Below are positions 5,567 to 13,178 of a stretch of DNA of 42,628 nucleotides, in pieces; within the stretch, counting starts at the first letter, position 1, and every line of letters begins with the position of its first letter. The DNA comes from an uncultured Lachnospiraceae bacterium. GTDB taxonomy: Bacteria > Bacillota > Clostridia > Lachnospirales > Lachnospiraceae. The position numbers and the translations under genes were made by a program. The notes below the pieces were generated by a model. It saw only the letters and a program-made list of their open reading frames with translations, was not told the DNA's origin and did not search any database. The stretch covers positions 1-42,628 of the forward strand of contig CANOVJ010000030.1 in assembly GCA_947570615.1 (NCBI GenBank), given 5' to 3'.

Positions 5567-5767
5567 TTATGATTTGCATTTGTCAAATTCCGGGTTAAAC
5601 GCGTAGAAGTTCCTGGAATCCAGCTTATCCTGGACGATGCGCAGGGCTTCGCCAAATCTCTGGAAATGCACGATCTCTCTGGCCCGCAGGAATTTGATGG
5701 GTTCGCACACGTCGCTGTCGTGGACAAGACGCAGGATGTTGTCGTAGGTGGTGCGGGCCTTCTGCTC
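5567..5767 (-). CDS. cotJC: CotJC spore coat protein, 3' third of interrupted gene
   Basis: Encodes the C-terminal 66 residues of CotJC, a manganese-catalase-family protein of the spore coat. Recognisable blocks are EQKARTTYDNILRL, REIVHFQRFGEAL and NFYAFNPEF. EIVHF carries family metal-ligand-type Glu/His residues. The frame continues upstream into non-homologous sequence (to 5887), but homology begins exactly at GAG 5767-5765, next to the core repeat GCAGCAGA. The missing 5' part is at 12112-12516. Joining GCA GCA (12117-12112) to GAG (5767) gives DMAAEQKART, matching the usual CotJC sequence with no gap. On its own this fragment has no good start or ribosome site. It is silent unless the intervening element is excised. 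Confidence 0.9.
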   Translation of the reverse strand, partial: EQKARTTYDNILRLVHDSDVCEPIKFLRAREIVHFQRFGEALRIVQDKLDSRNFYAFNPEFDKCKS

Positions 5768-5790
5768 TGCTGCGATCATATAAGAACAAC
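5766..5790. repeat. attL: core repeat plus element arm
   Basis: Core TCTGCTGC at 5766-5773 (GCAGCAGA on the coding strand of cotJC), followed inside the element by GATCATA and the arm TAAGAACAAC (5781-5790). The recombinase stop codon is 40 bp farther in. The symmetry centre predicted from the arms falls between 5766 and 5767, giving a TC (GA on the coding strand) overlap dinucleotide. That dinucleotide is not self-complementary, as required for directional serine integration. Confidence 0.75.
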
Positions 5791-5813
5791 CTGGGGTCAA
5801 TAGGCTCATGGAG

Positions 5814-7373
5814 CTAGAAACTCCAGTGAATTTCAATCGGAACGTCCTTTGTACCCGGTATACGTTTTCCCACACACACATAATCAATCAGAGCTTCCAC
5901 CATTTCCCGGGTAAGGCGCTCCGGGGTGGTGTATTGCCCGATCAGGTCACGGGGGTTACCGCCGGCCGCAATTTTTCCCTCAATTTCGGATAACTGTTCT
6001 TCACCGTCTGCCACTATGCGCATCAGGCGGTCGCGCTCTGTGGTAAAGTCCTCTGACATTTCCACATAATCGCTTTCAGACAGCAGGCCCTTTACCTTAT
6101 CCATGTAAAGCTCCCGAATCCCTTTTGAATATTCCCCAATTCTTTTTTCACAGACTGCTATAGATGAAAGCAGACGGGCTTTTTGCTCCTGCAAATTATC
6201 ACAAAATTCTATGTTCTGTTCCAGCTGGTCCCTGTCAAGAAATTCTGCTGTTAAATGGTTAAGCTCGTCGATTACAAGCTGTTCTAATTTATCAACAGAG
6301 ATAAAGGAACCGACACAGGCGTCCTTTGCCACATGGCGGTTTGAACATTTCAGATAATGCCTGTCGTGGTTTTTGGATGAGCGCATGGTGTAACCGCAGT
6401 TAGCGCACCTGGCTTTTCCTGCGAACAGGCCGATCGCGCCGGTTGTAAAGGGCCTGGCTTTCCGTGAGATTAACGACTGTACTCTCTCCCACAGCCCGCG
6501 GTCGATGATCGGTTCGTGGGTTCCCTCCACAATATACCATTCGCTTTTGGGACGGGGCCTGTTCTGCCTGGTCTTGTAGGATACGCTGCCGTATTTGCCC
6601 TGTACCATGTTTCCGATATAGATTTCGTTGACCAGCATACTGGAGATCGCAGCGTATTTCCAGAGCGTGCTGTTTCTGTTTTGGGGCTGCCGGTAGCGCA
6701 GACCGTGCAGGCGCTTGTATTCAGTCGGATTCGGTATGCCTCTGTCGTTGAGCATACGGGCGATTGCAGTTTTTCCATAGCCCTGTGAAAACAGGGTAAA
6801 TACCTCACGGACAACGGCGGCGGCTTCCCCGTCAATGATCAGGTGTCCCTTCCGGTCGGGGTCTTTCTTATAACCGTAGAGAGCAAATGCGCCGATATGA
6901 AACCCGTTTACCCGCCTGTTTGTGAGAACGCTGCGGATATTCTCGGACATATCCTCCAGGTACCATTCATTGACAAGTCCGTTGATCTGGCGGGATTTTT
7001 TGTTTCCCCTGTTCGCGGTGTCCGCGTTGTCTATAATGCTGATAAAGCGGATGCCCCAGAGAGGGAAAAGGCCATGTATGTACTTTTCTACCAGTTCAAG
7101 CTCACGGGTAAAGCGGGACTGGGTTTTGCAGAGGATAATATCAAATCTGTGCTGCTCCGCGTCGTTTAGCAGACGGTTAAACTCCGGGCGGCGTCTGTCA
7201 GCCCCCGCATAGTCGTCGTCGCTGTAAATGTTGTAGAGCTCCCACCCCTGTTCCATGGCGTATTGCAGTAACATTGATTTCTGGTTCTGGATGCTGCCGG
7301 AGTCGTCCGCTTCGGATTGTTTGTTTCTGTCCTCCTCGGATAAGCGGCAGTAAAGAGCTACTTTCATACTCAT
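5814..7373 (-). CDS. Large serine recombinase (site-specific integrase/excisionase)
   Basis: Catalyses strand exchange between att sites through a serine nucleophile. Domain order in 519 residues: resolvase-type catalytic domain with YCRLSEED (Ser12 nucleophile) and the later conserved block SRFTRELELVEKY; recombinase domain (GYKKDP, GYGKTAIARMLNDRGIPNP); zinc ribbon CANCGYTM then KCSNR and DAC, about residues 325-370; a Leu/Glu-rich coiled coil (about 375-460); and a short C-terminal part ending PIEIHWSF. ATG 7373 is chosen because it overlaps the stop of the preceding small ORF as ATGA; ATG 7367 is equally close, and longer starts would remove the overlap. It is encoded at the element edge pointing toward attL, the usual place for integrases. 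It is the obvious candidate for moving the cotJC element. Confidence 0.93.
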   Translation of the reverse strand: MSMKVALYCRLSEEDRNKQSEADDSGSIQNQKSMLLQYAMEQGWELYNIYSDDDYAGADRRRPEFNRLLNDAEQHRFDIILCKTQSRFTRELELVEKYIHGLFPLWGIRFISIIDNADTANRGNKKSRQINGLVNEWYLEDMSENIRSVLTNRRVNGFHIGAFALYGYKKDPDRKGHLIIDGEAAAVVREVFTLFSQGYGKTAIARMLNDRGIPNPTEYKRLHGLRYRQPQNRNSTLWKYAAISSMLVNEIYIGNMVQGKYGSVSYKTRQNRPRPKSEWYIVEGTHEPIIDRGLWERVQSLISRKARPFTTGAIGLFAGKARCANCGYTMRSSKNHDRHYLKCSNRHVAKDACVGSFISVDKLEQLVIDELNHLTAEFLDRDQLEQNIEFCDNLQEQKARLLSSIAVCEKRIGEYSKGIRELYMDKVKGLLSESDYVEMSEDFTTERDRLMRIVADGEEQLSEIEGKIAAGGNPRDLIGQYTTPERLTREMVEALIDYVCVGKRIPGTKDVPIEIHWSF

Positions 7374-7513
7374 ACGCCGGTGAGATCCCTGCGGCTTTTT
7401 TCCATCCGGTTGATCAGATTGATCCACACTCTGGTAAAGCTCTCACGGGAGGGCGTATTTTTGCCGTCTTTGAAGATGCTTTTACAGATTACGGGAGGCG
7501 TTTTTTCAGGCAA
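7370..7513 (-). CDS. 47-codon ORF coupled to the recombinase; candidate directionality factor
   Basis: Small reading frame from TTG 7513 (AAGGTG ribosome site 6 bases upstream) to a TGA at 7372-7370 that overlaps the recombinase ATG by 4 bases (ATGA), which implies translational coupling. The product begins LPEKTPPVICKSIF and continues KDGKNTPSRESFTRVW then INLINRMEKSRRDL. It is small, basic, and looks like a folded helical protein rather than random sequence. No known family was identified with certainty. Recombination directionality factors of serine integrases are small, basic, diverse proteins often encoded beside the integrase, so this is a reasonable candidate; a regulatory leader peptide is the alternative. 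Confidence 0.55.
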   Translation of the reverse strand: MPEKTPPVICKSIFKDGKNTPSRESFTRVWINLINRMEKSRRDLTGV

Positions 7514-7567
7514 GACATCACCTTCTTTTTCAGACTGTAATACAGCCTATGTATGGACGCCTGTACC

Positions 7568-8953
7568 TTATGCCATATCCTGGGGAAATGGAAGACTCAC
7601 CGTGACCAGCGCGCCCTTTTCCGGTGCGTTTTCAAGGCGGAGCGTTCCGCCCAGATCCGCGGCGATCCGGCTGGCGATGGAGAGTCCCAGGCCGAAATGC
7701 TCTCTGCTGCTGCGGCTCTCATCGTCACGGTAAAATTCGGTTGTGGCCAAACGCAGGGCCTGCGGGGAAAAGCCCTCCCCCTCGTCCTGCACGCAGAGCT
7801 GCAGCATGTCCCCGGCAGAGAAGGCGCGAAGAAAGACAGATCCGCCCTGAGGGGAATACTGCACGGCGTTGTCGATAAGATTGGCCAGGATCCGCCGCAG
7901 CTTATCTTCTGGAACAGGCAGGGAATCCGGCAGATTCTCCGTTGTAAGGGAGCAGGATATCCCTTTCTTTTTTCCGAGAGTTTCGATACTCCGCTCCATG
8001 GACAGAAGAAGCTCCTTAAGCTCGCAGACGCTGCCGGACGGGCCCTCTGACCGGGAGAGGGCGATCATTCCGGTTACATAGCGCTGGATCTGACCGGCAT
8101 GCTCCAGGATAAACGCGGTATACTCGCGCTGTTCCCCGGACTGTTCTGTCTCCAGCAGAAGCTCCGCATTGCCTGACACAATGGCCAGAGGGGTCTTGAT
8201 GTCGTGGGCCAGGGCGGAGAGCTGTTCCTTTTTCTGCTGCTCCATTGCCCACTGCCGTCCAAGGGACTGCTTCAGCCCCATCCGCAGCTGCTCCAGAGAG
8301 TCCATGATCTGGTTGAATTCCAGGAGCGACGTTTTCTCCGTCTCAAAGTCCAGGGTCTGCCGGCCGATCTGCTCCGCCGCCGCTGCCAGCTTTGACAGCT
8401 CCCGTTTCAGCCTGCGGGCATAGCGTACGGCGATAAAGAGCAGATCGCAGAGGAGCATAAAAAACAGCAGCAGAATAAAAAACAGATCCGCGCTGGGAAA
8501 GAGACGGCGCAGGAGCGGGGAAGTGAACTGGGCAAGGAGACGGTAGACCACTACCACGCACTGGGTATCTGTGATAAGGCGGAGATAGATGGAAGCGCCC
8601 CTTCGACGGATGCCCGTCCTCTCGCCGTTCTCCGTCAGCTCTGCGGCGGTATTTATGGCGCTTTCCTCCTTCAGACTGGTCTGTACAAGCGTCCCTTCTG
8701 CCGTAAAGAAGGCGTAATCTACTCCTGCGGGGATCTCCTGCGGCGTGATGGGGCGGTGTCCGTCAAGGGTGGCGCACCAGGCGGAAACGGCCTGTTCTGC
8801 GGCGTTCGCCGGGGACATGATATGAAAAAAGCCGGCGGCACAGAGCAGGCACGCCCACAGGATTCCTGTAAGGATCAGGGAGAGGACTGCGCGCCCCAGA
8901 AATATCACAAAAAAGCGGTTTAAGGTAATCTCTTTTTTCACACTGTGTTCCAT
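7568..8953 (-). CDS. Sensor histidine kinase of element two-component system
   Basis: Membrane histidine kinase, 461 residues. Two N-terminal transmembrane segments (about residues 20-45 and 158-178) enclose an extracytoplasmic sensor of roughly 110 residues. A HAMP-like linker, the H-box ALAHDIKTPLA (His about residue 250), the N-box NLIDNAVQYS, the G1-box DEGEGFS and the G2-box FGLGLSIA follow. All catalytic boxes are intact. The start overlaps the response regulator gene by 16 bp, so the pair is co-translated in the order TraX-like, regulator, kinase. The domain style is that of kinases governing envelope or antimicrobial-peptide responses, but the signal is not known. Confidence 0.88.
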   Translation of the reverse strand: MEHSVKKEITLNRFFVIFLGRAVLSLILTGILWACLLCAAGFFHIMSPANAAEQAVSAWCATLDGHRPITPQEIPAGVDYAFFTAEGTLVQTSLKEESAINTAAELTENGERTGIRRRGASIYLRLITDTQCVVVVYRLLAQFTSPLLRRLFPSADLFFILLLFFMLLCDLLFIAVRYARRLKRELSKLAAAAEQIGRQTLDFETEKTSLLEFNQIMDSLEQLRMGLKQSLGRQWAMEQQKKEQLSALAHDIKTPLAIVSGNAELLLETEQSGEQREYTAFILEHAGQIQRYVTGMIALSRSEGPSGSVCELKELLLSMERSIETLGKKKGISCSLTTENLPDSLPVPEDKLRRILANLIDNAVQYSPQGGSVFLRAFSAGDMLQLCVQDEGEGFSPQALRLATTEFYRDDESRSSREHFGLGLSIASRIAADLGGTLRLENAPEKGALVTVSLPFPQDMA

Positions 8954-9603
8954 CGGTATCCAATCCCCCAGATCGTTTCTATCGGAGATATGCCTGCCGC
9001 GGCCAGCTTTTTCCGAATATTTTTGATGTGCTCGGTGATGGCGGAAGCATCGCTCTCCTTCTCGTAGCCAAAGACATATTCAAAGATCTGCTCCCTGGAA
9101 TAGATCTGGCCGTGATTTCGGGCAAGCAGCAGACTGATCTCGTATTCGCTTCTGGTGAGGGAAAGCTTCTGCTCCCCGGCCCGCACCTCCTTCTGAGACA
9201 GGAAAAAGCGGACGCTCCCCACACAGAGACAGTGGATTTTTTCACGCTGCTCCCGGCGCAGGTGAGCATTCACCCGGGCTCTCAGCTCCCGGATGGAAAA
9301 GGGCTTTCGGATATAATCGTCCGCACCCACAGAAAAACCGAAATCAACGTCCTGTTCAAGGTCTCTGGCGGTGAGAAAAAGGATCGGGCAGTCCGTCTCG
9401 TCGCGTATTTCCCGACAGAAGGTGTATCCGTCCACGTCCGGCATCATCACATCCAGAAGGATCAGATCGAAGGATGAAAGCACGCTTCGAAGTGCAGAGG
9501 TGATCCGGGAGACGGTCTTTACCCGGTGTCCGTCTTTTGTCAGAGCGTTCTGAATCAGGACGAGCATGGCCTCGTCGTCGTCAATTGCCAGAATGTTTGC
9601 CAT
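8938..9603 (-). CDS. OmpR/VanR-type response regulator of element two-component system
   Basis: DNA-binding response regulator, 221 residues. The receiver has ILAIDDDEA, phospho-Asp in LILLDVMMPDVDG, Thr in FLTARD and Lys in YIRKPFS. A winged-helix domain follows (LTRSEYEISLLLARN, YEKESDASAITEHIKNIRKK, ETIWGIGYRW). Start set at ATG 9603 (AAAGGA 8 bases upstream), where receiver homology begins; an in-frame ATG at 9627 would add eight residues. The frame stays open much farther upstream but there it is only the complement of the TraX-like gene. The partner kinase overlaps the 3' end. A pair of 11-bp direct repeats in front of this operon (10588-10609) is a plausible target. Confidence 0.9.
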   Translation of the reverse strand: MANILAIDDDEAMLVLIQNALTKDGHRVKTVSRITSALRSVLSSFDLILLDVMMPDVDGYTFCREIRDETDCPILFLTARDLEQDVDFGFSVGADDYIRKPFSIRELRARVNAHLRREQREKIHCLCVGSVRFFLSQKEVRAGEQKLSLTRSEYEISLLLARNHGQIYSREQIFEYVFGYEKESDASAITEHIKNIRKKLAAAGISPIETIWGIGYRWNTV

Positions 9604-9626
9604 TTGCAGATTCCTTTCATCGGGCA

Positions 9627-10475
9627 TTAAACAATAATTCCATAAAGTATGCAGGAAAGCGCATACAGGATGTATATATGAGCCGGATAGAACCAGTAAA
9701 AGAAGCGTCCACAGCCCCGGCCCCGTGTCCCATTGTAGCACAGCATGGGGATCACTGCAAAAATTTCCATCCATTCGTATGCCGTTGTGAAGAAGTCTGT
9801 CATGCGCAGCGAAGGCGCCAGCAGCCGCAGCCGGACGATGTCCCACAGAATGCATACAGCCACAAAGGCCGCGGCCTGCGCCTTCCTGTTTTTGCGAAAA
9901 AGATAAAGCACGACGCCGAAAATAAGCGTGGCGGTTCCCCCGTCCATGATAAAGGTGTGGAGGGGCAGCAGGGTAAAGGCCAGAAGGTTCAGGGTAAAGC
10001 CACAGGCCGGACTGGGGAAGGCCGCCATCAGGGCGGATACGGCGAAGGGAAGCAGCACCGGAATCAGTATGGCGCAAAGGCCCGGCCCCCATTTCCGGCG
10101 TGTACACCAGTCAAATCCCTGCAGCACCACGATGAGAATGGAGAAGGACGCCAGCATCTGGTTCTGTGGGAAAAAGCCGTCCGGCCGCACCAGTACAGCG
10201 CCCAGGTTGTAGAAGGAAAACTGCACCGCCCCCATGAACACCGAGAGCAGGTAAATGCGCAGAAAATATTTTTTCCGGTCATGGGTATGGACAAAGCCCT
10301 CGATCACGCAGAACAGAAACAGCGGGGCGGAGAGCCGGCCTGCCATGGAAAGAAATATGGGAATTTTTCCCGTGTAGGCAAAGAAGTATTCGATGTGGTC
10401 GAGGACCATCAGGGCCAGAGCCAGATATTTCAGCGCGAATCCGGATAATCCTTTGGGGGATGTTGTCTGTTGCAT
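9627..10475 (-). CDS. TraX-family polytopic membrane protein
   Basis: 282 residues with about eight hydrophobic segments; the N-terminus reads LSGFALKYLALALMVLDHIE, followed by GRLSAPLFLFCVIEGFVHT. This is characteristic of the TraX family (named for the F-plasmid pilin acetylase) and related acyltransferase-like membrane proteins. In Firmicutes these genes usually occur without pili, and the acetyl acceptor is unknown. Start at ATG 10475 with an AAAGGAGGTAC ribosome site. It is first in a three-gene minus-strand operon; the regulator gene begins 23 bp after its stop. This suggests an envelope-modifying activity controlled by the adjacent sensor pair (inference). Confidence 0.8.
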   Translation of the reverse strand: MQQTTSPKGLSGFALKYLALALMVLDHIEYFFAYTGKIPIFLSMAGRLSAPLFLFCVIEGFVHTHDRKKYFLRIYLLSVFMGAVQFSFYNLGAVLVRPDGFFPQNQMLASFSILIVVLQGFDWCTRRKWGPGLCAILIPVLLPFAVSALMAAFPSPACGFTLNLLAFTLLPLHTFIMDGGTATLIFGVVLYLFRKNRKAQAAAFVAVCILWDIVRLRLLAPSLRMTDFFTTAYEWMEIFAVIPMLCYNGTRGRGCGRFFYWFYPAHIYILYALSCILYGIIV

Positions 10476-10587
10476 AAGTAAAGTACCTCCTTTGGGGTTT
10501 TAATTGTGGAGAAGCTCTTACAGCTTTGCGTACACCCGTCAGACGCGCCCGCGACAGAGCCCTCTGAAAAACAGCCTATCAGAGAGA

Positions 10588-10609
10588 TATAAGGAAAGTA
10601 TAAGGAAAA
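10588..10609. promoter_or_regulatory. Tandem 11-bp direct repeats, possible response-regulator operator
   Basis: TATAAGGAAAG followed immediately by TATAAGGAAAA, in the divergent intergenic region between the TraX-like operon and the hemerythrin gene. Head-to-tail repeats at about one helical turn are the usual binding layout of OmpR/VanR-type regulators, so autoregulation is plausible. No footprint is available. Confidence 0.35.
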
Positions 10610-10622
10610 ACAGATAATGAGA

Positions 10623-10652
10623 TTGCATTGTCGGGAGCGTATGATATATAAT
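10623..10652 (+). promoter_or_regulatory. Putative sigma-A promoter of the hemerythrin-receiver gene
   Basis: TTGCAT (10623-10628), 18-bp spacer, TATAAT (10647-10652), 55 bp before the ATG of the hemerythrin-receiver gene and next to the 11-bp repeats. Confidence 0.5.
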
Positions 10653-10706
10653 AGGTTATACTGTGGATAAAAAACTGTATGGAACAAAATAAGGAGGAGT
10701 GGAGCT

Positions 10707-12059
10707 ATGGATACGCAGTTTGTGTGGCGGCAGGAATTCAACATCGGCGTGGATAAAATCGACCGGGATCATCAGAGACTTTTTAAGATTATCAACAGGA
10801 TATATTCTTTTAAGGATAATGATGAGGGATATCGGTGGGCGTGTCAGGAGGGAATCAAGTTTTTCAAAGGCCATACAGTGCAGCATTTTGCGGACGAAGA
10901 GGCATACATGATTTCTGTGGGCTACGAGGGATTTGACGAGCACAGAAGAATACATAAAACCTTTCGGGAAAATACGCTTCCCGCTCTGGAACAGGAGCTG
11001 GAAAGAACGGATTATTCCCAGGAAGCCGTGAAGCATTTTCTGGGAGTCTGCGTGGGCTGGCTGATCGGGCATACCATGACGGAGGATCTGGCAATCGCGG
11101 GAAGGCCAATCCGAAGATGGGAAAACCTTCTTCCCAGAGAGCAGACCAGGGCTACGCAGGAGGTGATCGTGCAGCTTGTGCAGGATCTGTTCCATTTAAA
11201 GGCGCGAATGATCAGCGATGCCTACGGCGGTGAAAAATTCGGAGAAGGAGTGTACTACGATCTGATCTACGGGACAGACCGGGAGGAAAAAAAGCAGGAG
11301 ATCATTATGGTCTTTGAAGAAAAGCTGCTGATCAACACCGTGGGCAGGATCATGGGAATCCAGGCTGGTACGATGGATGCGATGCTGGTTCATGCCGCCA
11401 GATTCACGACTCAGCAGTTTGTAGGGCGGATTATGGAGCATTTTCCGGCCATGAAAAATTATGAGCTGAAGGGGGAGCGGCTTTTATCCTATGATCAGTT
11501 TCAGAAAGTGGTCGGAAATGAAAAGATGCAGCTGAGCCTGCTCTTTGGGGCAGAGGATGCGGGGTACTTCGCCTATTGCATGATCGCGCCTCATTTGCTG
11601 GAGAATGGCCTGGGGATGTCCATTGAGTCCGAAAAGGCCGCGGACGAAGTGAATCAGTATCTCCAGATGCGAAAAAAGCAGGAGCAGAATCAAAAGAAAA
11701 AGGTGCTGGTGGTGGACGATTCCATGACTGTCCGGCAGAGTATGATATCGCTTCTGGGCAGAGATTATGAAGTGTCGGAGGCGGAGTCCGGGGTGGCGGC
11801 CATCAGAGTCATCACTCTGAACAGGCCGGATCTGGTTCTGCTGGATTATGAGATGCCTGTCTGTGATGGCAGGCAGACGCTGGAAATGCTGCGCTCCGAG
11901 AAGGCATTTGAATCTGTCCCGGTGATTTTCCTCACAGGAAGGGGAGATCCGGAGAGCGTGAAAAAGGTGCTGGATTTAAAGCCGGCGGGGTATCTGCTGA
12001 AGTATTTGAAGCCCGAGGAGATTAAGCGCAATATCGATGAGTTCTTTAAAGGCAAATGA
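10707..12059 (+). CDS. Hemerythrin / CheX-like / receiver fusion protein
   Basis: Cytoplasmic signalling protein of 450 residues with three parts. Residues 1-135 form a bacteriohemerythrin with a full set of di-iron ligands: DRDH (His22), HFADEE (HxxxE), HRRIH (HxxxH) and HTMTED (HxxxxD). It should bind O2 or NO, or sense iron or redox state. Residues 190-320 look like a CheX/CheC-type phosphatase-like domain (EEKLLINTVGRIMG, later KVVGNEKMQLSLLF); this part is less certain. Residues 330-450 are a receiver (VLVVDDSMTV, phospho-Asp in LVLLDYEMP, FLTGRGD, Lys in YLLKYLKP). There is no DNA-binding or GGDEF output, so phosphotransfer or protein contact is likely. Start ATG 10707 has an AAGGAGG site. 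It is transcribed divergently from the TraX operon, inside the cotJC element. Confidence 0.88.
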   Translation: MDTQFVWRQEFNIGVDKIDRDHQRLFKIINRIYSFKDNDEGYRWACQEGIKFFKGHTVQHFADEEAYMISVGYEGFDEHRRIHKTFRENTLPALEQELERTDYSQEAVKHFLGVCVGWLIGHTMTEDLAIAGRPIRRWENLLPREQTRATQEVIVQLVQDLFHLKARMISDAYGGEKFGEGVYYDLIYGTDREEKKQEIIMVFEEKLLINTVGRIMGIQAGTMDAMLVHAARFTTQQFVGRIMEHFPAMKNYELKGERLLSYDQFQKVVGNEKMQLSLLFGAEDAGYFAYCMIAPHLLENGLGMSIESEKAADEVNQYLQMRKKQEQNQKKKVLVVDDSMTVRQSMISLLGRDYEVSEAESGVAAIRVITLNRPDLVLLDYEMPVCDGRQTLEMLRSEKAFESVPVIFLTGRGDPESVKKVLDLKPAGYLLKYLKPEEIKRNIDEFFKGK

Positions 12060-12078
12060 ATCAGGATGCAAATGGGAT

Positions 12079-12108
12079 GGGGCGATGTTGTTCTTACGAC
12101 ATCGCCCC
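12079..12108. terminator. Perfect 10-bp hairpin next to attR
   Basis: GGGGCGATGT, 10-base loop, ACATCGCCCC. It lies 19 bp after the hemerythrin gene stop and contains the right attP arm in its loop region. There is no U-tract on the plus strand. It may end transcription, help recombinase binding, or both. Confidence 0.5.
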
Positions 12109-12117
12109 GTCTGCTGC
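12087..12117. repeat. attR: element arm plus core repeat
   Basis: Arm GTTGTTCTTA (12087-12096), 13 bp, then core TCTGCTGC (12110-12117). The arm is the exact inverse complement of the attL arm at 5781-5790. Once the ends are joined, both arms lie 14 bp from the centre between the first and second core bases. A second inverted match (GCGAT) occurs at equal distance on both sides. Confidence 0.75.
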
Positions 12118-12516
12118 CATATCCTCAAACAGATCCGTGATGGCGTCCCCCTTGGACTGGAATTCGCAGCTGTTGAAGGGAATTCCCCCTGCCGCCATGG
12201 GCCAGATACCGATGGTGTGATCCACGTAATAGTTGGCGAAACCGGACGCCTCGATCTCCTCCATGGAAAGGTTTTTGGTGAGCTGGTGGACGATGGTGGA
12301 GACCATTTCCAGGTGAGCCAGCTCTTCTGTTCCTATATCCGTCAGGATCGCCGCCACCTCGTTATAGGGCATGGAATAGCGCTGGGAGATATAGCGCATG
12401 GAGGCTCCCAGCTCGCCGTCAGGGCCGCCGTACTGAGACATGATCACCTGAGCGATTTTCGCGTTGGGCTCCTTGATATTTACCGGGAACTGTAATCTTT
12501 TCTCATAACTCCACAT
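12112..12516 (-). CDS. cotJC: CotJC spore coat protein, 5' two thirds of interrupted gene
   Basis: Codes for the first 135 residues of CotJC, a manganese-catalase-like coat protein made in the mother cell. Blocks include QYGGPDGELGASMRYISQRY, LTDIGTEELAHLEMVSTIVH (with Glu and His metal-ligand-type residues) and YVDHTIGIW. Start ATG 12516 has a GGAGGA site, just after the cotJB stop. Reading through the insertion junction adds only DGAMS before a stop at 12094, so the present product would lack the last 66 residues (including EIVHF). The remainder is at 5567-5767. The two parts join perfectly in frame through the 8-bp core repeat to give a 201-residue protein of normal family length. Confidence 0.92.
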
Positions 12517-12519
12517 AAC

Positions 12520-12789
12520 TTAACATCCTCCTTCCCAGGGCCAGGGCTGAGTCGCCCATTTCCACTCATTCTGCGGGCATCCGTCCGCGTCGGAGATCCG
12601 CAGCGGGCCGTACTTCATGGCGTATTCCCGCATGGCCTGATTCTGCATACGCACATAGTGGTTTAAATATTCCATGGCTTCCCTGTCGGTAGGGTGGGTG
12701 TCCAGATACTCGTTCATCTCCACCACCACAAAGCTGATCACACCGATCTCGTGATAGAGCCTGCGCTGTTCGTTATTCTGCATATTCAT
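12520..12789 (-). CDS. cotJB: Spore coat protein CotJB
   Basis: 89-residue CotJB, an inner-coat-associated partner of CotJC. It shows the family pattern LYHEIGVISFVVVEMNEYLD, then DREAMEYLNHY and a C-terminal KYGPL with a W-rich end (EWKWATQPWPWEGG). ATG 12789 is preferred over the ATG at 12798: it is correctly spaced from AAGGAG and overlaps the cotJA stop as ATGA, implying translational coupling. The cotJC start follows 3 bp after its stop. The gene itself is intact. Confidence 0.9.
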   Translation of the reverse strand: MNMQNNEQRRLYHEIGVISFVVVEMNEYLDTHPTDREAMEYLNHYVRMQNQAMREYAMKYGPLRISDADGCPQNEWKWATQPWPWEGGC

Positions 12790-12956
12790 TTCACGCATCT
12801 CCTTCCTGTAAAGGGCTTTTCCAGCTCAGGGAAAATGGTACCCGTTTTATAGGCTTCGTCGAGGTTTTCAAAAACGCTGGTCAGATGCTGCCAGGGAACA
12901 TAGGCCATCGCCAGCGGAAAACGGTCAAAATACTCGTTAAAACTGTAGTCCTGCAT
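12786..12956 (-). CDS. cotJA: Spore coat protein CotJA
   Basis: 56-residue CotJA, first gene of the cotJ operon, needed for coat assembly of CotJC in Bacillus. Typical sequence: FPLAMAYVPWQHLTSVFENL followed by AYKTGTIFPELEKPF. ATG 12956 is chosen (GAAAGGA site 6 bases upstream); an upstream in-frame extension to 13010 has no family similarity. The stop overlaps the cotJB start. Confidence 0.9.
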   Translation of the reverse strand: MQDYSFNEYFDRFPLAMAYVPWQHLTSVFENLDEAYKTGTIFPELEKPFTGRRCVK

Positions 12957-12993
12957 GGTTTTCCTTTCATAAAATGGAAAGTGATTTAATATT

Positions 12994-13001
12994 ATAGTAT
13001 G
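12994..13001 (-). promoter_or_regulatory. SigE-like -10 box upstream of cotJA (weak)
   Basis: On the minus strand CATACTAT matches the mother-cell sigma-E -10 consensus CATACAMT in seven of eight positions, 38 bp before the cotJA ATG. No convincing -35 is seen at normal spacing. cotJ is a known sigma-E operon in Bacillus subtilis, which is the main reason to mention it. Confidence 0.3.
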
Positions 13002-13178
13002 TCGGGGCAAAATTCCGGTTCCCTGTAAGTGTAAATATTTCCCGTTTTTTTTCCGGTATCCGGCGGCCTTTTGTCATTGCGTAAAATTCCGCCCTTCCGC
13101 TTGCAAACCCCCCGGCACTGTGATTTAATAATAATGACGGCAGTATGCCGTTACAAAAAAGAAACCAAAGAGGGTGGT

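Follow-up and report, generated by a model that had tools for sequence, protein, structure and literature searches.

A large serine recombinase element in the spore coat gene cotJC belongs to a mobile family with nearly a single address and may be excised during sporulation

Is a spore coat gene that mobile DNA has cut in two lost to its host, or is it made whole again in the cell that needs it? The locus that raises this question lies in an uncultured Lachnospiraceae bacterium (assembly GCA_947570615.1), on positions 1 to 42,628 of contig CANOVJ010000030.1, the whole stretch of DNA that was analysed and is called the window below. Here a 6,344-bp element, which encodes a large serine recombinase (LSR) and has GCAGCAGA at both ends, interrupts cotJC at codon 136. 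A sequence-only reading had treated the insertion as a single case. We find instead that it is one of a widespread mobile family, and we think it rather probable that it is a site-specialised mobile element, developmentally excised from cotJC in the mother cell before the cotJ operon is expressed. The wider pattern of cotJC insertions is more interesting than the single case.

The sequence-only reading described the split accurately: two parts on the same strand, an 8-bp repeat whose two copies start 6,344 bp apart, and a gapless 201-residue join. The repeat copies are at 12110-12117 and 5766-5773, the positions of the Pfam Mn-catalase profile are consecutive in the two parts (1-150, then 147-198), and neither part contains a stop. 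The joined CotJC matches uninterrupted same-genus copies over its full length, with up to 98% identity (L003; L denotes loci and G genomes), and removal of the element leaves a single open frame whose protein corresponds to those intact copies over residues 1-201. The genes cotJA and cotJB lie directly upstream of the cotJC 5' part, on the minus strand from 12956 down to 12110, and the promoter ahead of them is sigma-K-like; such a promoter precedes cotJA in 21 of the 22 sequences from the genus and points to an operon of the mother-cell type. The claim that an LSR element sits in a gene of a mother-cell operon, and that its precise removal restores the frame, is thus upheld by the Pfam matches, the genus copies and this promoter. 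The features of the interrupted operon are as follows.

5567 to 5773, minus strand: cotJC 3' part, residues about 134-201 and the stop, starting in the right repeat GCAGCAGA (5766-5773); Pfam Mn_catalase, 3e-9
5766 to 12117, no strand: inserted element including both 8-bp repeat copies
12110 to 12516, minus strand: cotJC 5' part, residues 1-136, ending in the left repeat GCAGCAGA (12110-12117); Pfam Mn_catalase, 3e-31
12520 to 12798, minus strand: cotJB; Pfam CotJB, 2e-28
12786 to 12956, minus strand: cotJA; Pfam CotJA, 7e-16
12993 to 13022, minus strand: sigma-K-like promoter of the cotJ operon, GGAAC-N16-CATACTATA; in the genus, AC-N16/17-CATANNNTA upstream of cotJA

We searched one genome per species (84,980 species) for relatives of the LSR and kept the best 80 of 517 confirmed relatives. 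In cotJC, at the window's site, lie 74, probably 75, of these 80, far more than chance would give; three lie elsewhere, the LSR ending in other sequence (L040, L043, L067), and two reach a contig end (L096, L102), leaving 78 readable loci. Next to the 3' end of the LSR comes the cotJC 3' part in 58 of the 80 relatives and, with the opposite orientation, the cotJC 5' part in 13; L037, L069 and L103 are likewise in cotJC, and L105 probably is, judged from its left junction. The hosts include Lachnospiraceae, Oscillospiraceae, Anaerotignum and Caproiciproducens, and 21 of 396 sampled genomes of the family, the window's own included, have the LSR at E <= 1e-150. Judging by where its relatives sit, the LSR is specialised for a single address, the E136 codon of cotJC, a residue that is presumably a metal ligand. 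LSRs with DUF4368 are described as largely multi-targeting (PMC10083194), which makes a nearly monospecific cotJC clade unusual. In one cotJC (L037 / L142, 912-8071) two cotJC-type LSR genes stand in tandem, the second frame-broken, with an att-like junction between them; these are elements stacked at one address.

When the ends of the window element are joined, they form an imperfect inverted repeat centred on a GA within the repeat, in the codon of E136. This dyad has 16 of 25 matches (2,000 shuffles: mean 10.5, maximum 16), and the four other elements tested have the same centre with 15-17 of 25 matches, making five of five. Because the dyad centres on GA, strand crossover probably takes place at this dinucleotide rather than over the whole 8 bp. 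At L094, where the left and right junctions differ near the core, crossover at GA preserves the conserved A-A-E-Q codons and crossover further upstream would not. At L043 the LSR is followed, on a 38-kb contig, by a junction that resembles an unrecombined attP instead of cotJC (1556-1610); here the element may be free or arranged in tandem.

A search of close relatives for uninterrupted cotJC, as the sequence-only reading had proposed, gave a cotJC match in 35 of 37 genus genomes, of which 16 have an uninterrupted gene (L003-L015, L017, L023, L024) and 19 have broken or partial copies only. The breaks fall at three fixed positions, here called sites A, B and C: near codon 62 (G002, G006, G023), at codon 136 (G000, G001, G004, G019, G020, G030, G032, G036) and at codons 173-184 (at least G002, G003, G005, G007, G008, G011, G030, G032, G035). 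The gene is broken twice in G002, G030 and G032, and a single piece was seen in G009, G011, G023 and G028. These lone pieces, and the contig ends at which some drafts break, make any individual case uncertain. LSRs of the other two addresses are about 22-29% identical to the window LSR over aligned parts (L016, L035, L070), and at codon 136 itself the LSR of G004 and G020 is only a 49-52% relative. Two insertions with the pieces kept occur in one 600-bp gene in G030 and L070, and in G387 three LSR types adjoin cotJC pieces 26-64, 61-136 and 172-200, spread over two contigs. From comparison with solved Mn catalases and their ligand positions, the sites presumably lie at or near E65xxH68, E136 and E166xxH169.

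Two further observations concern site C. In G003 (C18, 96161-153500; L146, L145) about 57 kb, a prophage-sized distance, separates the parts of cotJC near codons 171-184, and the LSR beside the 5' part has 54% identity to the C-site type. Extra copies of the cotJC 3' end follow a 3' part or gene that is itself complete at L051 (3265-3348), L157 (3265-3348) and L154 (4944-5048), as if some C-site elements supplied their own replacement cotJC end.

How long has cotJC been occupied? The LSRs of L111 and L178 show zero synonymous difference and those of L039 (Anaerotignum) and L042 (Roseburia) a dS of 0.14, with the surrounding cotJC saturated in both pairs. Because LSRs are identical or nearly so between hosts whose cotJC is synonymously saturated, many insertions are young; the window LSR is separated from its nearest relatives by a dS of at least about 0.6, which leaves its own insertion undated. 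The inference of spread uses the listed close LSR/cotJC pairs only. A count of pairs in which synonymous divergence was lower in the LSR than in cotJC (102 of 402) was discarded, doubly saturated pairs having been scored as not lower. The LSRs themselves are constrained (median dN/dS 0.06, 544 pairs), and that of the window is intact, with pN/pS of 0.13-0.16 against its 12 nearest relatives.

The sequence-only reading had argued from the conserved halves that the gene is still under selection, and had named accumulating stops as a sign to the contrary. Such accumulation was not found: duplicates counted, 37 cotJC 5' parts are free of stops and 75 3' parts have a single one among them (L088). 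The lack of stops in both window halves stands, and the argument built on it is weak because many insertions are young and the window's own is undated. Within the genus, pN/pS is 0.051 for the split 5' part (8 genomes) and 0.048 for the intact one (16 genomes), and 0.023 for the split 3' part (3 genomes) as against 0.060, comparisons of little power. Since many insertions are young and synonymous sites mostly saturated, we dropped selection on the cotJC halves as functional proof; it is evidence neither way. Developmental repair is nevertheless plausible on other evidence, a sigma-E-like block ahead of a small open reading frame (ORF) and the LSR. The features of the element, all but one on the minus strand, are listed here.

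5814 to 7373, minus strand: LSR, 519 aa from the ATG at 7373, a longer GTG start at 7427 being possible; Resolvase, Recombinase, Zn_ribbon_recom and DUF4368; PHROG integrase, 2.8e-98
7370 to 7513, minus strand: conserved small ORF, 47 aa, TTG start, candidate recombination directionality factor (RDF); homologues lie upstream of LSRs
7541 to 7572, minus strand: sigma-E-like promoter block CATAAGGTACAGGCGTCCATACATAGGCTGTA (ATA-N17-CATA), a pattern found upstream of the small ORF
7568 to 8953, minus strand: cargo, sensor histidine kinase; HisKA, HATPase_c
8938 to 9606, minus strand: cargo, OmpR-type response regulator; Response_reg, Trans_reg_C
9627 to 10475, minus strand: cargo, TraX-family protein; Pfam TraX, 2e-22
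10707 to 12059, plus strand: cargo, hemerythrin-response regulator protein; Hemerythrin, Response_reg

Small-ORF homologues were recognised immediately 5' of the LSR in 68 of 105 loci examined; in the window the LSR start codon overlaps the small-ORF stop (ATGA). The small ORF of the window has no family in Pfam, NCBIfam or PHROGs. We had expected TnpW, and rejected it, there being no TnpW match; the small ORF of another element does match TnpW. Twelve elements with both ends known have in common the LSR and mostly the small ORF, and their cargo differs widely, with few families recurring, in two or three elements. Among the ORFs of the window element no relaxase was found by Pfam; a MobA-like protein was seen, by eye only, in L075. 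A phage origin was rejected for the window element: its ORFs contain no phage structural family, and LSR matches in phage records are all less than 60% identical. Read by eye, the cargo of the L033, L166 and L162 elements includes DUF262-like, AlbA-like and Abi-like proteins, which suggests that some cotJC elements carry phage-defence genes. The promoter block of the window overlaps the histidine kinase stop codon, so cargo and recombination genes may share one transcript.

When might such an operon be expressed? The sigma-E and sigma-K patterns that we used come in part from general background and were therefore tried on control genes. The sigma-E control spoIVA gave the E-type pattern in 13 of 20 regions and the K-type in none (the start of the window genome's own spoIVA, as read, is among the regions without the E-type pattern), and the sigma-K control sigK gave the K-type in eight of eight and the E-type in none. 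In the genus, cotJA has the K-type in the 21 of 22 sequences mentioned above and the E-type in none (nonredundant; shuffles 0.07); over all loci the counts are 44 and 3 of 72. The element small ORFs are the reverse, with 38 of 42 E-type and two K-type (nonredundant), and of 41 nonredundant elements 35 have ATA-N17-CATA itself ahead of the small ORF (shuffles 0.52, maximum 3). By this contrast the element operon resembles an early mother-cell gene and cotJ a late one.

When every B-type locus in cotJC whose upstream DNA is long enough is included in a looser count, the block is present in 47 of 54 (shuffles 3.94), and together with the spacer core GKACWWG in 37 of the same 54 (shuffles 0.08). 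Shuffles leave shared ancestry in; the spacer does differ between elements. Block and core also precede unrelated small ORFs at the other two cotJC sites, in 8 of 16 nonredundant C-site elements (shuffles 0.06) and 5 of 12 at site A (shuffles 0.02). The groups counted as elsewhere include loci whose cotJC end was unfetched, and are not a clean negative control; ten C-type relatives away from cotJC, mostly alike, have no block (L231-L240), and as nonredundant loci this group comes to four, one of which has it (L212). Between the small ORF and the LSR, 30 of 35 elements with room have a sigma-A-like promoter (per-sequence shuffle rate 0.18), an arrangement also known in the skin element of Clostridioides difficile. 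We do not claim SpoIIID control of the block: GKACWWG resembles a SpoIIID consensus, and no box was recognised in the sigK upstream regions.

The sequence-only reading had called the insertion a third type of sporulation intervening element. That count does not hold, as sigK, spsM, spoVFB, spoVR, gerE and yabG are already reported targets, and skin, SP-beta, vfbin, vrin, gin and yin are precedents. We found no report of a mobile element within cotJC in open-access titles and abstract starts, a scope outside which supplements, subscription papers and preprints fall. The prophage phi027 of Clostridioides difficile adjoins a CotJC homologue (PMC11222575). The C. difficile skin element is likewise an LSR element in a mother-cell gene (sigK) that excision restores; its recombinase (CD1231) is constitutive, from a sigma-A promoter, and its small RDF gene (CD1234) is under sigma E and SpoIIID (PMC5025042). 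Skin has another target, and the window element, unlike it, has no phage structural family; the small ORF of the window is a candidate RDF. In C. difficile, sigma E and sigma K promoters have a common -10 and different -35 elements, and operons containing CotJC homologues are sigma-K dependent (PMC3789822). The gin element in gerE of Bacillus cereus resembles ours as a non-phage intervening element with a short shared repeat and a serine recombinase with a helper; it differs in having three recombinase genes where the window has one LSR and a GA core, and its scope is B. cereus and B. toyonensis strains, as against 74-75 of 80 relatives at one address (PMC5595907). The yin element of Clostridium botulinum also hits a SigK-regulated gene, and has a putative RDF and excised circles; it is prophage-like, from one strain and in another gene, yabG (PMC10747680).

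Staphylococcal cassette chromosome (SCC, ccr) elements offer a different comparison, with an LSR, one chromosomal address, exchangeable cargo and tandem copies (here L037); the window family differs in its target, its single recombinase and its sporulation-type promoter block. The best NCBIfam match of the element LSR is CcrB, far below the cut-off. LSRs of the TnpX/TndX type associate Resolvase, Recombinase, zinc ribbon and DUF4368 domains, and TndX and TnpX are presumably members of the DUF4368 clade. The domains of the window LSR match this type, its DUF4368 just over the cut-off (26 against 25 bits), and so does the GA core dinucleotide, a central GA being required by TndX, the LSR of Tn5397 (PMC4430133). 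Unlike Tn4451/TnpX-type elements, the window clade is nearly cotJC-specific.

What the loci offer for a mechanism is an LSR, a reconstructed GA-centred attP, a near-single address, horizontal spread, variable cargo and a sigma-E-like block. The sigma-E-like block on the element and the sigma-K-like cotJ promoter fit excision in the mother cell before cotJ transcription. The small ORF, acting as directionality factor, would be made in the mother cell under sigma E; the element would then leave cotJC in frame, ahead of sigma K turning on cotJ. The forespore chromosome would retain the element, so the host lineage would pay little for the insertion.

Several points weigh against this proposal. 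That the small ORF is an RDF is a guess from its position and size. In the window the spacer that would carry the sigma-A-like promoter is missing, and neither a circle junction nor a free circular element was found in the window's own assembly, an absence that means little. The 42 element sequences of the promoter test were drawn from the 68 loci with a recognised small ORF, which omits 37 of the 105, and the block with its core is lacking from half of the elements at site C and from 7 of the 12 at site A. Median pairwise dN/dS over all loci is 0.14 and 0.18 for the split parts and 0.11 for intact genes (16 pairs only). Another intact cotJC, by the sequence-only reading, would make this copy dispensable. 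None was found in the window's own genome at E <= 0.001 (assembly 94.8% complete, 112 contigs), and at least 5 of 20 other family carriers have an uninterrupted second one (G138, G148, G271, G306, G320). In C. difficile, mutants of two CotJC homologues are reported to have less catalase and no significant coat defect (PMC11222575), so permanent loss of cotJC could be tolerated. Finally, a stricter form of the block gave 42 matches in 250 family genomes and the reversed pattern 28, so specificity lies only in the position ahead of LSR operons, not in the pattern itself. Among 30 matches read, 11 fall within larger ORFs; the remaining 19 stand ahead of an LSR in 17 cases. Ten of these 17 operons are cotJC types and seven are other LSR types outside cotJC, four of them near-identical and TnpW-associated (TnpX-like) and three DUF6870-associated; either sigma-E excision control is common or the block has another meaning. 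Because of these seven, developmental excision is likely but unproven.

The non-cotJC operons may have targets of their own. In three loci (L305 17496-19776, L314 1613-3893, L316 1436-3728) the pair of TnpW and TnpX-like genes, which has nearly the same promoter block, lies next to fragments of LSR genes other than its own, as if these elements targeted recombinase genes. One DUF6870-associated LSR adjoins a collagen-like gene and one is near tuf; at L309 (2105-4825) and L313 (365-2673) a DUF6870 small ORF with its LSR, or another LSR, lies beside collagen-like repeat genes. These are presumably of the type found on spore surfaces, and collagen-like genes are possible further spore-surface targets.

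The same loci could hold an ordinary LSR mobile element, seated on conserved codons of a dispensable cotJC and excising at a low rate for transfer; carriers would then do without CotJC and the block would be general to LSR operons. We consider this unlikely, if a serious candidate. Recent horizontal spread and varied cargo speak for it, as do the blocks ahead of the seven non-cotJC LSRs, the reported dispensability of the C. difficile homologues and the second cotJC of some carriers. It is harder to square with a block whose spacing, -35 and -10 are as in the host's sigma-E control gene and unlike the sigma-K type, and which recurs, within one mother-cell gene, in three LSR lineages whose small ORFs are unrelated; the double insertions with pieces kept in G030 and L070, and the three LSR types by cotJC pieces in G387, also argue against it. 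Some mobilizable islands leave when a helper element is active, and the block might answer to the regulator of such helper conjugative elements instead of sigma E. The preference of the block for LSR operons (17 of the 19 matches outside larger ORFs), the TnpX-like carriers that adjoin recombinase genes of other elements and the core GKACWWG, not seen by eye in spoIVA promoters, are in line with this idea, which we hold to be improbable: a CATA-type -10 with an ATA-type -35 at N16-18 is the sigma-E pattern of the controls, and no candidate regulator is known, the elements not having been searched for one. Very improbable, in our judgement, is a stranded remnant in the window that has lost excision, and with it cotJC. 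Its small ORF and LSR do overlap without the usual spacer promoter, and its cargo ORFs have no relaxase family in Pfam; on the other side, the LSR is intact and constrained, the block and small ORF are retained and neither cotJC part has a stop. Expression from the block alone would moreover match the layout of the B. subtilis skin, whose recombinase is reported to be itself under sigma E.

Excision of a site-specialised element from cotJC in the mother cell thus remains the explanation towards which we lean, and it would bear on more than one locus. Known intervening elements have so far occupied a handful of sporulation genes; here one spore gene is broken or partial in 19 of the 35 genus genomes that have it, at three addresses, with varied cargo and movement between genera. 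For annotation, this is a warning that CotJC may appear absent or truncated in many gut genomes. Developmental excision, if it occurs, would account for the cheap residence of mobile DNA in a useful gene. It would also offer many natural replicates of the capture of a mother-cell promoter by recombinase operons, and a set of small candidate directionality factors, each with a site-specific LSR as its partner. At about even chances, in our estimation, mobile DNA of gut Clostridia has in cotJC a general safe harbour, used by at least three LSR lineages, each specific for one metal-ligand motif and many with excision genes behind the same sigma-E-type block. The mother cell, itself doomed, would remove the insertions shortly before it needs CotJC, and elements with unrelated cargo could occupy the gene, or stack in it, at almost no cost.

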